A stretch of 64,000 nucleotides of DNA, taken from contig JAHBTE010000001.1 in assembly GCA_019638675.1 (NCBI GenBank), positions 900,605-964,604 on the forward strand, given 5' to 3'. Positions within the stretch are counted from its first letter, which is position 1. Each line of letters begins with the position of its first letter. A program made the position numbers and the translations under genes. This DNA comes from Fimbriimonadaceae bacterium. Lineage in GTDB: Bacteria > Armatimonadota > Fimbriimonadia > Fimbriimonadales > Fimbriimonadaceae. The notes under the pieces were generated by a model, which was not told the origin of the DNA, did no database searches, and saw only the letters and a program-made list of their open reading frames with translations. This document shows positions 43,477 to 48,485 of this stretch, piece after piece.

Positions 43477-44037
43477 GTGAATGCACTGATTGCGGGACTC
43501 ATCTTGACGCAAGCGGGGCGCGGTCTCCCTACAAATCCGGTCTCTTTGGAGGGAACTCTCAACCTGAAAGGCGAGCTTTCAAAAATCTCCACCCAAGAAT
43601 TTCAAGCGACAGTCTTCTTGTTTATCGCCGCTGAGTGTCCGATTGCAAATCGTTACGCGCCCGAAATTGGGCGAATTTATTCGGAGTATTCACCAAAAAA
43701 AGTGCAGTTCTTCCGGGTTTACGTTGACCCATTGGAACGAGCCGCTGAATTCAAAAAGCACGGTGAGGATTACAACCTTAAAATGTCAGCGTTGCTTGAT
43801 CCCAATAAGTCCTTGGTCAAAGCAACTGGCGTAAGGGTGACTCCCGAGGCGGTAGTTTTAAACTCAAAAGGAGTGATGAAGTACCGTGGCCGTATTGACG
43901 ATATGAACATTGAGCACGGCAAAGTGCGCGAGGGATATCGCCGCGATCTCCGTGTCGCGCTGGATGAAATCATTGCTGGGAAAGCTGTGAGCATGCCGGA
44001 AGCCACTGCCATCGGCTGCTACATTCCGGGCGATTAG
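43477..44037 (+). CDS. Redoxin/thioredoxin-like protein
   Basis: A 186-residue AhpC/TSA-Redoxin fold protein. The active-site region AAECPIANRYAPE has one Cys (not CxxC), as in redoxin proteins that partner with cytochrome c in Planctomycetes and allied phyla. A second Cys is near the C-terminus (AIGCYIPGD). The N-terminus is weakly hydrophobic and may direct export. The start is GTG at 43477; TAATAT lies 6 bases upstream, so the message is probably leaderless. Divergent from the cytochrome gene; overlaps the convergent sigma-factor gene by 4 bases. Confidence 0.82.
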   Translation: MNALIAGLILTQAGRGLPTNPVSLEGTLNLKGELSKISTQEFQATVFLFIAAECPIANRYAPEIGRIYSEYSPKKVQFFRVYVDPLERAAEFKKHGEDYNLKMSALLDPNKSLVKATGVRVTPEAVVLNSKGVMKYRGRIDDMNIEHGKVREGYRRDLRVALDEIIAGKAVSMPEATAIGCYIPGD

Positions 44038-45191
44038 ATTTGGGTTAACCGCTCAACTAAACTAGCCCGAATCGGCTGAGAAATGGTTGCGGCAATCGCT
44101 TTTTTATAAGCTGAAGATGCCGCTGTTTTATTTCCTAATTTCATGTAGAAGTGAGCGACCGCGCAATGAAAGTGCGGGGTTTTCGCGATCACTTTATGGT
44201 CTTTGAGTGAATTCAGCTTATCCAGCCCAGCCTGAGCACCATGTGCTTGCCCAAACGCAATTGCATGAGAAAGCAAGGCCATGGGGGATGGCGACATCTC
44301 CACAATCATCGAGTGCCATCGGAGAATTTGTTCGGGTGACTCGTTCGCTGTGATTGCGGCGGCTAGCCCGGCCTCCAAATGATATCGGCTCAAAACTGTG
44401 CTTTTTTGAGCGCATTCTAGGGCGGCGAATCCAGCGACTATTTCGTTTGAATTCCACAGAGAACGGTTCTGATCCTCAAGCAGAATGGGGAGTCCATCTT
44501 CGGTCATTCGGGCAGGTAAACGGCTGGAATGAAAGTGCATCAGGGCAAGCAGGGCAAAAATTTCAGGATGATCTTCTCCGATCATCACCGCTAGCTGTTG
44601 AGTGAAAATAATCGCCTCACGCGCTAGGTCACGGCGAACATAGTCATCTCCTCTGGTTGCCTCATATCCTTCATTAAACAGCAAATACAAAGAGAGCAAA
44701 ACGGTGGGGAGGTTTTCTTCAATTGATTGCTCGGTAAGGTCAGTTGGTGTGAGTTTGTTCTTAGCGCGGCTGATTCTGCGTTGAACAGCTTCCTCGGATT
44801 CGTGTAAAGCATGCGCGATTTCGAGAGCGGTCAACCCGCCCAGAGTTCGCAGGATGAGGCAGATTTGATCCAACGGTGAAAGGATTGGGTTGCACACCAT
44901 AAAGTAAAGGGCGAGTTCATCCGGCGAGTTTTCATCTGCCACCGCATGGACATCTTCTAATGCTGTCTCTCTTGCAGATTTCCTGAATTGGTCAATCAGC
45001 CGTCGTTCTGCCGTTGTGATCAGCCAAGCGATTTCGTTTTGCGGGCTTCCCGATTCTGGCCAAGAGTGCAGAGCGGCAACGAATGCCTCTTGAGTTGCAT
45101 CTAGGATGGATTCTAGGTGTTGAGGGCCGAACTTTCGCAGTAGAGTCGCAGTGACTTTTCCGTGATGTTCGCGAAAATTCGGCCCAGACAT
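44034..45191 (-). CDS. ECF sigma factor, ECF42 type with C-terminal TPR/DUF6596 extension
   Basis: A 385-residue sigma factor. Region 2 lies at about 10-80 (ILDATQEAFVAALHSWP, ITTAERRLIDQFRKSA), region 4 at about 105-160 (RTLGGLTALEIAHALHESEEAVQRRISRAKNKL). The remaining 220 residues are the DUF6596/TPR-like extension that defines the ECF42 group and is needed for its activity in Streptomyces. There is no anti-sigma factor nearby, as expected for this group. It starts 3 bases after the YCII/DGPF gene, so the two are co-transcribed. A promoter-like site matching ECF42 elements lies upstream, suggesting autoregulation. Target genes and inducing signal are unknown. Confidence 0.9.
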   Translation of the reverse strand: MSGPNFREHHGKVTATLLRKFGPQHLESILDATQEAFVAALHSWPESGSPQNEIAWLITTAERRLIDQFRKSARETALEDVHAVADENSPDELALYFMVCNPILSPLDQICLILRTLGGLTALEIAHALHESEEAVQRRISRAKNKLTPTDLTEQSIEENLPTVLLSLYLLFNEGYEATRGDDYVRRDLAREAIIFTQQLAVMIGEDHPEIFALLALMHFHSSRLPARMTEDGLPILLEDQNRSLWNSNEIVAGFAALECAQKSTVLSRYHLEAGLAAAITANESPEQILRWHSMIVEMSPSPMALLSHAIAFGQAHGAQAGLDKLNSLKDHKVIAKTPHFHCAVAHFYMKLGNKTAASSAYKKAIAATISQPIRASLVERLTQI

Positions 45192-45194
45192 AGA

Positions 45195-45716
45195 TTAATA
45201 GTTCATTTGTTCGCGGACTTCAATCGTTCCGCCGTTTGCGATGCCGGGGCAGTCTTTAGCAATTTCTGTTGCTTCGGCAAGATCGTTCGCCATGAAAACG
45301 TAGTAGCCGCCAACGACTTCCTTTGCCAGCGAATAAGGGCCATCGGTAACCGAAAGCTTGCCGTCAACCAACTTCATGACTTTTCCATGTTCGCTCAGCC
45401 CTTCTGCATCAACCAGCCGGCCTTCTTCTTTCAGCCGGGCGGCATAGTCGGAATATTTTTGAACGGCGGCCTGCATTTGCTCCTTGGTGTAAGAAGCCCA
45501 CTGCTTTTCTGATTCAGCACTGGAATAAATGACGAGGAGATATTTTTTCATAGCTTTTTTCTCTTGGAGCTTTGGCTCTTGCCGGGGAGTCGGTTGGGAA
45601 TGAAGAATACCGACATCGCTTGGTTTTGAGCCTAGTTTTTGGTGAACGTGAGCCGTGCAGATTAGCCCAGCTAAGCTGACCGCGCAGATAGAAACTTCGA
45701 TGAATTTGAGGGTCAT
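45195..45716 (-). CDS. YCII/DGPF-family protein with N-terminal hydrophobic extension
   Basis: A 173-residue protein. The last 118 residues are the YCII-related dimeric alpha/beta domain (KKYLLVIYSS, then SVTDGPYSLAKEVVGGYYVF, a DGPY variant of the DGPF motif). Genes of this family accompany ECF42 sigma factors. The full reading adds about 55 residues with a hydrophobic helix (VSICAVSLAGLICTA) and polar linker. The ATG at 45716 has CCGGAGG with 7-base spacing, so the extension looks real; the classical family start corresponds to an internal ATG at 45551 with only a weak site. Membrane tethering or export of the domain would be unusual. Confidence 0.85.
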   Translation of the reverse strand: MTLKFIEVSICAVSLAGLICTAHVHQKLGSKPSDVGILHSQPTPRQEPKLQEKKAMKKYLLVIYSSAESEKQWASYTKEQMQAAVQKYSDYAARLKEEGRLVDAEGLSEHGKVMKLVDGKLSVTDGPYSLAKEVVGGYYVFMANDLAEATEIAKDCPGIANGGTIEVREQMNY

Positions 45717-45752: not shown

Positions 45753-45779
45753 GTCGTTTCTCAGTTCCAGAAACCGACA
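45753..45779 (-). promoter_or_regulatory. Candidate ECF42-type promoter upstream of the DGPF-sigma operon
   Basis: On the minus strand: TGTCGG, 17 bases, CGAC. The ECF42 promoter described in Streptomyces venezuelae has TGTCGA at -35 and CGA(T/C) at -10 (recalled knowledge). The same -35 and spacer recur before the second DGPF gene. A 13-base palindrome, CCGGAATTTCCGG (45727-45739), lies between this site and the start codon and includes part of the Shine-Dalgarno. Confidence 0.6.
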
Positions 45780-45782
45780 GGG

Positions 45783-46109
45783 TTAGTTGCTAAGACAGAA
45801 AGGATCTTCAGCTTCCCGAGACGGAGTTATTGGAAGCAAACTTGCGGGCACGCCAGCCGAATCTCCGAATTGATCCTCGTAGATGAACACCCAGTAGTCG
45901 GGAAGAACTTCTGCGGCGGCAAACAAGTAAGTGCGACCGTGCTTTCGGATCGCGTAGATGGGAAAACTGACATTAGGATGCTCAAGAAAGCCTTCAGGAA
46001 AAGCGTATTCACCAGTGAACGTCCAAGAATGCGCCCAAACATTCAGGCCGTGAACAATCGCCTGGCGGCCCTTTAAACTGTATGCAAAATTTGTCCAGCG
46101 ACCTCGCAT
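45783..46109 (-). CDS. Small hypothetical protein
   Basis: A 108-residue soluble protein with many aromatic residues and a pattern of short strands (WTFTGEYAFPEGF, VSFPIYAIRKHGRTYLFAAAEVLPDYWVFIYED). No known family is recognised and there is no signal peptide. It lies between the peroxiredoxin gene (divergent) and the sigma-factor operon on the same strand; its stop is just upstream of the ECF42-like promoter. The strand pattern and composition look like a real protein, but the evidence is limited to that. Confidence 0.55.
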   Translation of the reverse strand: MRGRWTNFAYSLKGRQAIVHGLNVWAHSWTFTGEYAFPEGFLEHPNVSFPIYAIRKHGRTYLFAAAEVLPDYWVFIYEDQFGDSAGVPASLLPITPSREAEDPFCLSN

Positions 46110-46225
46110 GGTGATTCTAGTGTATAGGATTGGGAGGGAAAGTTCCAGTTGATTTTTTAACAGTTATCCTCTAGCGGAACTATTTACGCTTAATGCGTAT
46201 TTTGCAGTTTGTGAAGGAGAATGCA

Positions 46226-46861
46226 ATGATCTCGAATGGAATGAAATTGGCTTGCGCGGGAGTTTTGGTGATTGGAGCCGGTATGGCAATTGCTGGATTG
46301 GATGATATGGTGGCTTCGAGTGCGGAAACGACTAAACCTCTAAAGGCGGGTGTGAAGGCTCCTAATCCTGGTCTTCATAACCTGGAGGGCAAGAAAACTG
46401 ACCTTGCTACTATCGCTGGCGAAAAGCCAACGGTTCTGATTTTTTATCGTGGTGGCTGGTGTCCTTATTGCAACCGACACCTTGCAGAACTTGGAAAAAT
46501 TGAAAATGACCTTGTAGAAATGGGCTATCAGATGGTCGCGGTCAGCCCAGATACCCCAGCGGAGCTCAACAAGAGCGTGGAAAAAGGCGAGCTCAAATAC
46601 AAGCTTTTCTCGGATTCAATGGCTGACGCGGCGAAGCAGTTCGGAATCGCCTTCAAAGTCGAAGAATCGCTGGTCACTAAGTACAAAAATGACTACAAGA
46701 TTGATCTAGAGGCGGCGTCCGGGCAGAAGCACCACATTTTGCCCGTGCCATCGGTCTTCATTATCAAAAAGGGCATGATCATCTACTCCTATTCAAACCC
46801 AGATTATCGAGTTCGGCTAAAAGGCGATGAAGTTCTTGCTGCGGCCAAAGCGGCGATGTAG
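46226..46861 (+). CDS. Exported peroxiredoxin-like protein (AhpC/TSA)
   Basis: About 211 residues from the preferred ATG. A membrane anchor or signal peptide (LACAGVLVIGAGMAIAGL) precedes an AhpC/TSA domain with the active-site motif FYRGGWCPYCNRHLAEL, a CxxC as in the 'peroxiredoxin-like' PrxQ/2-type branch. GGAG lies 6 bases before the ATG at 46226; a start at 46193 would add 11 residues without such a site. It probably reduces peroxides outside the cytoplasm. It lies inside the ECF42 module, on the opposite strand, ending 1 base from the second YCII gene, which hints at a link to oxidative stress. Confidence 0.85.
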   Translation: MISNGMKLACAGVLVIGAGMAIAGLDDMVASSAETTKPLKAGVKAPNPGLHNLEGKKTDLATIAGEKPTVLIFYRGGWCPYCNRHLAELGKIENDLVEMGYQMVAVSPDTPAELNKSVEKGELKYKLFSDSMADAAKQFGIAFKVEESLVTKYKNDYKIDLEAASGQKHHILPVPSVFIIKKGMIIYSYSNPDYRVRLKGDEVLAAAKAAM

Positions 46862-46862
46862 C

Positions 46863-47210
46863 TTAGATTTCGCGCACATCAATTGTCCCGCCTGTTTCAA
46901 GGGCGGGACATTGTTTTGCTAGCTCGGTTGCTTCTTCAAGATTTGCGGCGGTAAACAAATAGAACCCACCCACGAGTTCCTTTGCCAGCGTGTACGGGCC
47001 ATCGGTCACAGATATTTCGCTTTGTTTTTTGCGGACTACGTTTCCACCTGTCTTTAATCCATCTGCCTCAATCAATCGGCCTTCTTGAGCAAGTCTCTCG
47101 GCGAAGTCTTTGTACTTTTTTATCGCGGCGCGGCGTTCCTCTAACGGCAGCGCATCGAAAGCCGCTTCGGATTCTTCCGAGTAGTACAAAAGCAGGAGGT
47201 ACTTGTTCAT
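46863..47210 (-). CDS. YCII/DGPF-family protein
   Basis: A 115-residue YCII-domain protein, the canonical length. Opens NKYLLLLYYSEESEAAFD and has SVTDGPYTLAKELVGGFYLF, the DGPY variant of the DGPF motif, followed by a C-terminal TIDVREI. It is a close paralogue of the domain at 45195-45551. Function of DGPF proteins is not known. The start codon directly follows the stop of the MFS gene; an ECF42-like promoter inside the end of that gene would give an almost leaderless mRNA, because only 10 bases separate its -10 element from the ATG. Confidence 0.88.
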   Translation of the reverse strand: MNKYLLLLYYSEESEAAFDALPLEERRAAIKKYKDFAERLAQEGRLIEADGLKTGGNVVRKKQSEISVTDGPYTLAKELVGGFYLFTAANLEEATELAKQCPALETGGTIDVREI

Positions 47211-48485
47211 CTATGTAGCAGACGGGGCAAGGTCGTCACTGCCGACATTTTCATGCGATTCCACGAATTCTAAGTCACGTCCGTATGTTTCGGGCAACCG
47301 ATAAACCGCCCAAACCGCCAGCGAGAGCACCACGACTCCGAGAATCGTTAGCGCGCCGATCGGGCCGAACTGGGGAATCAGTAATCCGCGAATAATCGAA
47401 AGCGGGATTACCAACCCACGCACAAAACTTGGAGCAGTCACCGCAACCGTACCGCGAAGGTTGGTGCCGAACGTTTCCCCAGCCGTAGTGACGAACACGG
47501 CCCAATATCCCGCACCGACACCAGCAACAAACATCAGCCAATAGAACGAGGTTCGATCTTTGGTGACAGTGAGAATGAGGGCAATCGCAATCGCCATTAA
47601 AGTCAACGCGGCGGTGAACGCCTTTCTCCTGCTTTTGAGGATTTGGGAAAGCCCACCAAAAATCACATCGCCGACGGTTAAACCAATTGCAGAAATCATG
47701 ATGATATCGGCGACTGGGAAGGGGTTAGCGATGTTGAGGGCTTCTTGAAGTTCCTTGGAGAACGTCATAAACAGTCCAGCAAAAAACCAAACCGGAGCTC
47801 CGTTGAGAATGGTCGCTAGGTAGCGAGTCGCCCGTTCTTTGGTTTTGAACAGTCCGAGAAAATCACCACGCCGGATATTGTCGTTTTCTTTGAGCCGCTC
47901 GAACATTCCGGATTCAAAGACGCCGATTCGGAATATCAGCAGGGCGATTCCCATTCCACCACCGATCCAGTAACCGATGTTCCATGGGAAGACCTTGGCG
48001 AACATTGCCGCCGCAACCGAACCGGCCACTCCGCAAGTGGCAACGAGAGTGGTCGCCCACCCACGAAACTCTTTCGGCACTAGCTCCGAAACCAAAGCGA
48101 TTCCTGCACCTAGCTCACCCGCCAGGCCGACTCCCGCTACAAATCGGCACACAGCGTACATCGGGATATTAGCCACAAATCCGTTGGCGATATTGGCGAT
48201 GCTGTAGAGGAAGATCGAGCCGAAAAGCACGGCGAGACGCCCTTTTTTATCGGAAATGATTCCGAAGGCGATTGCCCCCAGAATGAATCCCGCCATCTGA
48301 GTGTTCAGCAACAGGTGGCCCATCGCTTCGTTGCTGGCTTTATCGGTAAAGCCCAACGCGTTGAGGCTATCCACCCGTAAAACTGAATAAAGCCAGATAT
48401 CGTAAACATCCACAAAGTAACCGAGCGATGCGGCTACGATGGCAAGTATAACGTTCGATTTTTTTGCCGTCCCCGTTGACTGCAT
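47211..48485 (-). CDS. MFS transporter
   Basis: A 424-residue major facilitator with about 12 helices. The loop 2-3 signature appears as GIISDKKGRLAVLFGS and the helix 4-5 region as RFVAGVGLAGELGAGIALVSELVPKEFRG, the pattern of the sugar/organic-acid/phosphate-type MFS (MHS-like) branch. The substrate cannot be predicted. The C-terminal 20 residues also encode a candidate promoter for the following YCII gene. It lies in the same transcriptional direction as the ECF42 module and may be part of it. The start lacks a clear Shine-Dalgarno site. Confidence 0.85.
   Translation of the reverse strand: MQSTGTAKKSNVILAIVAASLGYFVDVYDIWLYSVLRVDSLNALGFTDKASNEAMGHLLLNTQMAGFILGAIAFGIISDKKGRLAVLFGSIFLYSIANIANGFVANIPMYAVCRFVAGVGLAGELGAGIALVSELVPKEFRGWATTLVATCGVAGSVAAAMFAKVFPWNIGYWIGGGMGIALLIFRIGVFESGMFERLKENDNIRRGDFLGLFKTKERATRYLATILNGAPVWFFAGLFMTFSKELQEALNIANPFPVADIIMISAIGLTVGDVIFGGLSQILKSRRKAFTAALTLMAIAIALILTVTKDRTSFYWLMFVAGVGAGYWAVFVTTAGETFGTNLRGTVAVTAPSFVRGLVIPLSIIRGLLIPQFGPIGALTILGVVVLSLAVWAVYRLPETYGRDLEFVESHENVGSDDLAPSAT
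47221..47247 (-). promoter_or_regulatory. Candidate ECF42-type promoter of the second DGPF gene
   Basis: On the minus strand: TGTCGG, 17 bases, CGTC, lying inside the last codons of the MFS gene. The hexamer and spacer are identical to the site at 45753-45779; the -10 differs in one base (CGTC versus CGAC). The distance to the ATG at 47210 is 10 bases. Confidence 0.5.

Follow-up and report, generated by a model that had tools for sequence, protein, structure and literature searches.

ECF42 is a very widespread group of sigma factors. The suspected sensors in this group are the TPR-rich extension of the sigma factor and perhaps the DGPF/YCII proteins (reviewed in PMC8999054). RpoE10 of Sinorhizobium meliloti belongs to ECF42, and three promoters listed for it have the sequence TGTCGG-N17-CGTC (PMC6180224, Table 1), with the mapped start 9 nt after the CGTC in the promoter table (PMC6180224). 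Expression of the YCII-rpoE10 operon did not rise when RpoE10 was overexpressed, in spite of the matching motif present there (PMC6180224).

The DGPF–sigma system described here, from a Fimbriimonadaceae bacterium (Armatimonadota), is a further instance of this already known type. It lies in a 64 kb stretch of DNA, referred to below as the window. The features considered are as follows, in window positions:

44034–45191, minus strand: ECF42-type sigma factor gene (385 aa; sigma-70 regions 2 and 4, DUF6596 C-terminal extension)
45195–45551, minus strand: DGPF1, YCII-family protein (PF03795; 118 aa; true start at 45551, not 45716)
45589–45615, minus strand: site 3, TGTCGG-N17-CGAC, putative proximal promoter of the DGPF1–sigma operon, predicted start near 45580
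45753–45779, minus strand: site 1, TGTCGG-N17-CGAC, putative distal second promoter of the DGPF1–sigma operon
46863–47210, minus strand: DGPF2, YCII-family protein (115 aa)
47211–48485, minus strand: MFS transporter gene, with site 2 within its 3' end
47221–47247, minus strand: site 2, TGTCGG-N17-CGTC, inside the MFS 3' end, before DGPF2

The sigma factor is the sole PF20239 (DUF6596) protein in the genome, and is 87% identical to that of the closest named relative, Fimbriimonadaceae bacterium ACE_ARM8. A Pfam scan placed PF04542 and PF08281/PF04545 above their cut-offs, corresponding to sigma regions 2 and 4 only, and PF20239 matched the C-terminal extension with an E-value of 4.8e-30. (The ECF42 trait of a TPR-rich DUF6596 extension of ~200 residues was scored via DUF6596.) The two DGPF proteins scored 59.1 and 56.7 bits for PF03795, compared to a gathering cut-off of 24. 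Among the nine proteins of the locus, the Pfam scan found no anti-sigma gene near the sigma gene. The locus thereby presents the traits of the ECF42 group: the sigma regions, the extension, an adjoining DGPF/YCII gene, predicted promoters of the form TGTCG(A/G)-N17-CG(A/T)C, and no nearby anti-sigma gene. The DGPF1 gene is the immediate upstream neighbour of the sigma gene, while DGPF2 is placed past a divergent AhpC/TSA gene and abuts the MFS gene. The ECF42 operon is bordered on both sides by genes of the AhpC/TSA-redoxin family (46193–46861 and 43477–44037), both on the opposite (plus) strand, which may point to oxidative stress.

Three sites around the DGPF–sigma locus

Sites 1 and 2 had been described in the earlier note, and both were present exactly as claimed (site 1, TGTCGGTTTCTGGAACTGAGAAACGAC, 45753–45779, minus strand; site 2, TGTCGGCAGTGACGACCTTGCCCCGTC, 47221–47247, minus strand). 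Site 3 (TGTCGGTATTCTTCATTCCCAACCGAC, 45589–45615, minus strand) had not been noticed. The pattern TGTCGG-N17-CGWC thus has three matches in the 64 kb window, where 0.25 were expected, and only 1 of 100 dinucleotide shuffles of the window reached three matches. All three exact sites are on one strand and span 1.7 kb around the DGPF–sigma locus. Sites 1 and 2 are not chance occurrences. Allowing one mismatch in the window search gave 10 matches against 6.65 expected, which was not useful, and the motif search found no site before the neighbouring 48512–49093 gene.

We consider it highly probable that these sites are ECF42-type promoters and that the sigma factor transcribes its own operon together with the DGPF2, DUF6265 and DUF1579 genes. 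The sigma factor (44034–45191) would, with RNA polymerase, recognize TGTCGG at −35 and CG(A/T)C at −10, separated by a 17-base spacer. It would transcribe its own DGPF1–sigma operon, with site 3 as the main promoter and the distal site 1 probably used as well, forming a positive feedback loop. Its further targets would be DGPF2, by way of site 2 within the MFS gene, and two unlinked genes, encoding DUF6265 (C1:357340) and DUF1579 (C1:894602) proteins. The proposal of the earlier note that the ECF42 factor drives the DGPF–sigma operon and the second DGPF gene is supported by computation: the motif is identical to that of the listed S. meliloti RpoE10 promoters, its presence before DGPF genes of relatives goes with the presence of ECF42, a 17-base spacer is strongly preferred, the boxes but not the spacers are kept in the sister species, and the arrangement is found again in other phyla. 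Self-activation is not guaranteed, given the outcome of RpoE10 overexpression in S. meliloti. Also against the proposal, site 2 would give a leader of only ~2 nt and could be MFS coding sequence, site 1 is unusually far out, and about half of the ECF42-linked YCII genes lack the exact motif.

Site 3 lies 37 nt before the conserved DGPF1 start codon (ATG 45551), and site 1, which falls just past the stop codon of the 45783–46109 gene, lies 201 nt before it. In the orthologous loci L035, L037, L038, L039, L041, L052 and L088, a motif is found 18–55 nt before the DGPF ATG; site 3 falls within this range, and is therefore the counterpart of the motifs in those loci. Being the nearest of the three to the conserved DGPF start, it is the best candidate for the main promoter of the DGPF1–sigma operon. 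The earlier note had named only site 1 before this operon; its position is distal and the likely main promoter is the one that had been missed, but in the sister species all 10 box bases of site 1 are conserved while 7 of the 17 spacer bases have changed, indicating that it is probably also used, as a second, distal promoter. Tandem sites that look like ECF42-type promoters recur in the cyanobacterial plasmid loci L230 and L231, where two N17 sites are found 81–82 nt apart before a YciI gene that is divergent from the sigma gene. Loci L037 and L041 have tandem DGPF genes ahead of the sigma gene, each with its own putative N17 promoter.

The open frame of DGPF1 extends upstream to ATG 45716. 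The extension (window 45552–45716, minus strand) includes a hydrophobic segment and has a good ribosome-binding site, but comparison of the two species gives no sign of selection at the protein level. We considered the possibility of two products: a longer DGPF1, carrying a hydrophobic extension at its N terminus, made from site 1, and a short cytosolic form made from site 3. ATG 45716 is preceded by GGAGG and lies 36 nt from site 1, resembling the spacing between site 3 and ATG 45551, and the frame is open in both species. However, substitutions between the species are distributed 8/4/10 over the three codon positions in the in-frame extension, compared to 1/0/28 from 45551 on, and the extension is therefore not under protein-level constraint. 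The same pattern places the DGPF1 start at 45551 and led us to reject the long start at 45716. Two products are thus quite improbable.

As the earlier note had stated, site 2 is within the coding end of the MFS gene, whose stop codon, TAG, is immediately followed by the ATG of DGPF2; the −10 element ends just 10 nt before this ATG. With the start expected 9 nt past CGTC, by the S. meliloti rule, the leader of the DGPF2 mRNA would be ~2 nt, and transcription from site 2 would be nearly leaderless. The motif-to-gene distance of the DUF6265 target is also 10 nt, in both species. The last 17 MFS codons, which overlap site 2, are unchanged in the sister species, whereas ~30% of the synonymous codons of the gene have changed; at the synonymous rate of the gene, no change in these codons has P of about 0.004.

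Alternatively, only site 3 and the unlinked targets might work, with sites 1 and 2 matching the motif by chance or as coding sequence. DGPF2 would then be expressed only by translational coupling, as second gene of an operon with the MFS gene. Such an arrangement would agree with the direct junction of the MFS stop and DGPF2 start codons, with the position of site 2 in a conserved coding gene 10 nt from the ATG, and with the 201 nt distance of site 1, and a second site at that place is seen in the sister species alone and in no other relative. However, the boxes of site 1 were kept while its spacer changed, the MFS codons under site 2 lack synonymous changes, the DUF6265 target has an equal distance that is conserved too, and cyanobacterial plasmids also have paired sites ahead of YciI genes. 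We therefore regard this alternative as unlikely and retain sites 1 and 2 as probable promoters.

The motif in relatives and across the genome

Relatives were searched over a sample of about 48 ECF42 loci, using the pattern TGTCG(A/G)-N17-CG(A/T)(C/T) within 120 nt of a YCII gene, with gene starts estimated by script. The N17 motif was present within this distance of 28 of the 64 ECF42-linked DGPF/YCII genes and of 11 of the 21 unlinked YCII genes in ECF42-bearing genomes, compared to 0 of 20 YCII genes, of mixed subtypes, in genomes that lack ECF42. The difference between unlinked and ECF42-less genes was significant when related genomes were treated as independent (Fisher p = 0.00016). Shuffled sequences gave <0.05 motif matches per set. 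No exact motif was present before about half of the ECF42-linked YCII genes. Seventeen was the only favoured spacer length; others were rare, and the few 13-base spacers arose mostly where the −10 region contains a second CG.

This arrangement is seen again in Pseudomonadota, Actinomycetota and Cyanobacteriota, and was found on plasmids of Pseudomonas, Streptomyces, Embleya, Chroococcidiopsis, Leptolyngbya, Nostoc, Burkholderia, Phyllobacterium, Sinorhizobium, Neorhizobium and Vibrio. The predicted ECF42 promoter is the same in these three phyla as in Armatimonadota, so that regulons can be predicted in uncultured lineages. A full ECF42 copy is also found on a P. putida plasmid (L237), between IS6100 copies near sul1, and many Klebsiella and E. 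coli plasmids (hits H35–H60) carry a match that is limited to the C-terminal (DUF6596) 150 residues of ECF42.

The genome was then scanned by pattern search, with the reversed pattern as a control. The exact motif gave 14 matches in the 2.85 Mb genome, against 8 for the control; in genome G004 there were 15 matches and 18 control matches. Five of the 14 are placed as promoters: the three window sites, a site 10 nt before the DUF6265 gene (C1:357340) and a site 17 nt before the DUF1579 gene (C1:894602). Both of these targets have short signal-peptide-like starts. The sister genome has exact copies of all five promoter-placed sites, compared to two of the nine other matches (p = 0.02), and between the two species the five sites have 0 changes in 50 box bases and 16 in 85 spacer bases (p = 0.0005). 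Boxes, and not spacers, are thus conserved. What we observed directly is the motif, where it lies, how it is conserved and that it depends, across genomes, on ECF42 being present; that the ECF42 factor at 44034–45191 makes transcripts from these sites is what we infer from them.

In G004, a site likewise precedes relatives of the DUF6265 and DUF1579 genes, and in both G004 and G007 a site precedes the gene of a double YCII-like protein. These proteins (L158 in G007, L163 in G004) are built of two YCII-like halves, begin with a short stretch resembling a signal peptide, and are preceded by the N17 motif at 18–20 nt. On a Leptolyngbya plasmid, too, there is a DUF1579 gene close to the ECF42 locus. 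The third YCII gene of the genome, in a VOC–YCII operon (L067), had no site. The short list of predicted targets (DGPF, DUF6265, DUF1579 and double-YCII proteins) narrows the purpose of ECF42.

The looser pattern suggested in the earlier note, with A or G at the sixth position, a spacer of 16 or 17 and a terminal C or T, would return mostly noise: with the −10 relaxed to CGWT, there were 10 matches compared to 13 in the control, which is background. The expectation that the regulon could be read from sequence was correct only in a restricted sense, as the bare motif was insufficient (14 vs. 8), while motif, position and conservation together sufficed. Judged from sequence, it is position and conservation that separate the putative real sites from background. 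The genome counts, only modestly above the reversed control here and below it in G004, could suggest that the motif is a word common in the sequence of these genomes at large and has nothing to do with the sigma factor. Its absence before YCII genes in ECF42-less genomes, the strong preference for one spacer length and its identity with the RpoE10 promoters make that reading scarcely credible, and we continue to regard the motif as that of the ECF42 factor.

Residue 137 and the sixth −35 base

Across 39 sigma–promoter pairs, the sixth base of the −35 element tracked residue 137 of the recognition helix without exception: Ala or Gly with A (26 pairs), Gln, Glu or Ser with G (12 pairs), and Arg with C (one pair, TGTCGC in Roseibium). 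(The first survey of Armatimonadota loci had admitted only A or G as the sixth base.) The tree shows at least two origins of the G state, and the two to three independent changes are too few for a sign test. Wider sampling found Ser with A in L252 and with TGTCCA in Caballeronia and Paraburkholderia, so that Ser is ambivalent at this position. The Caballeronia and Paraburkholderia plasmid loci (L242, L243) have the variant TGTCCA-N17-CGTC before a YciI gene, and a different recognition helix, AAMSKRL.

We take residue 137 to be aligned with R171 of SigE, by way of the RxRA(K/R) segment, and the same shared segment would align it with K170 of SigW. If TGTCGG is set on TGAAAC, position −31 would correspond to the sixth letter. 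In SigW, K170 makes contact with the G of the template strand that faces C-31 (PMC6713349). The pairing of Lys or Arg with C in SigW and SigE fits the Arg/C case of Roseibium. Residue 137 alone may set the sixth −35 letter (A for Ala, Gly or Thr; G for Gln or Glu; C for Arg) by reading the template-strand base, as SigW K170 does, a proposal that we see as evenly balanced between right and wrong. If true, a single residue would separate the ECF42 regulons of different lineages, or switch them, and the co-variation offers a directly testable specificity rule.

Comparison with known systems

The locus is most like the S. meliloti RpoE10 regulon, with which it shares identical boxes and spacer, the YCII–sigma gene pair and a small (here predicted) regulon of poorly known genes. 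The targets differ: glyoxalase-like and hydrophobic-ligand-binding proteins in S. meliloti, compared to a second DGPF protein and DUF6265 and DUF1579 proteins here. The ECF42 factors of S. venezuelae (Sven_0747, Sven_4377 and Sven_7131; PMC8999054) likewise have a long C-terminal extension and a YCII/DGPF neighbour, and plasmid-borne ECF42 loci of Streptomyces have the N17 motif, as here; however, the Streptomyces loci examined have A as their sixth −35 base, where the Fimbriimonadaceae clade has G. SigW of Bacillus subtilis and SigE of E. coli belong to different ECF groups and are held by anti-sigma factors, unlike ECF42 here. In their sigma-4 domains bound to the −35 element, the counterpart of residue 137 in the recognition helix makes contact with the template base that faces −31 (PMC6713349), with Lys or Arg paired with C, where the present sigma factor has Gln with G.
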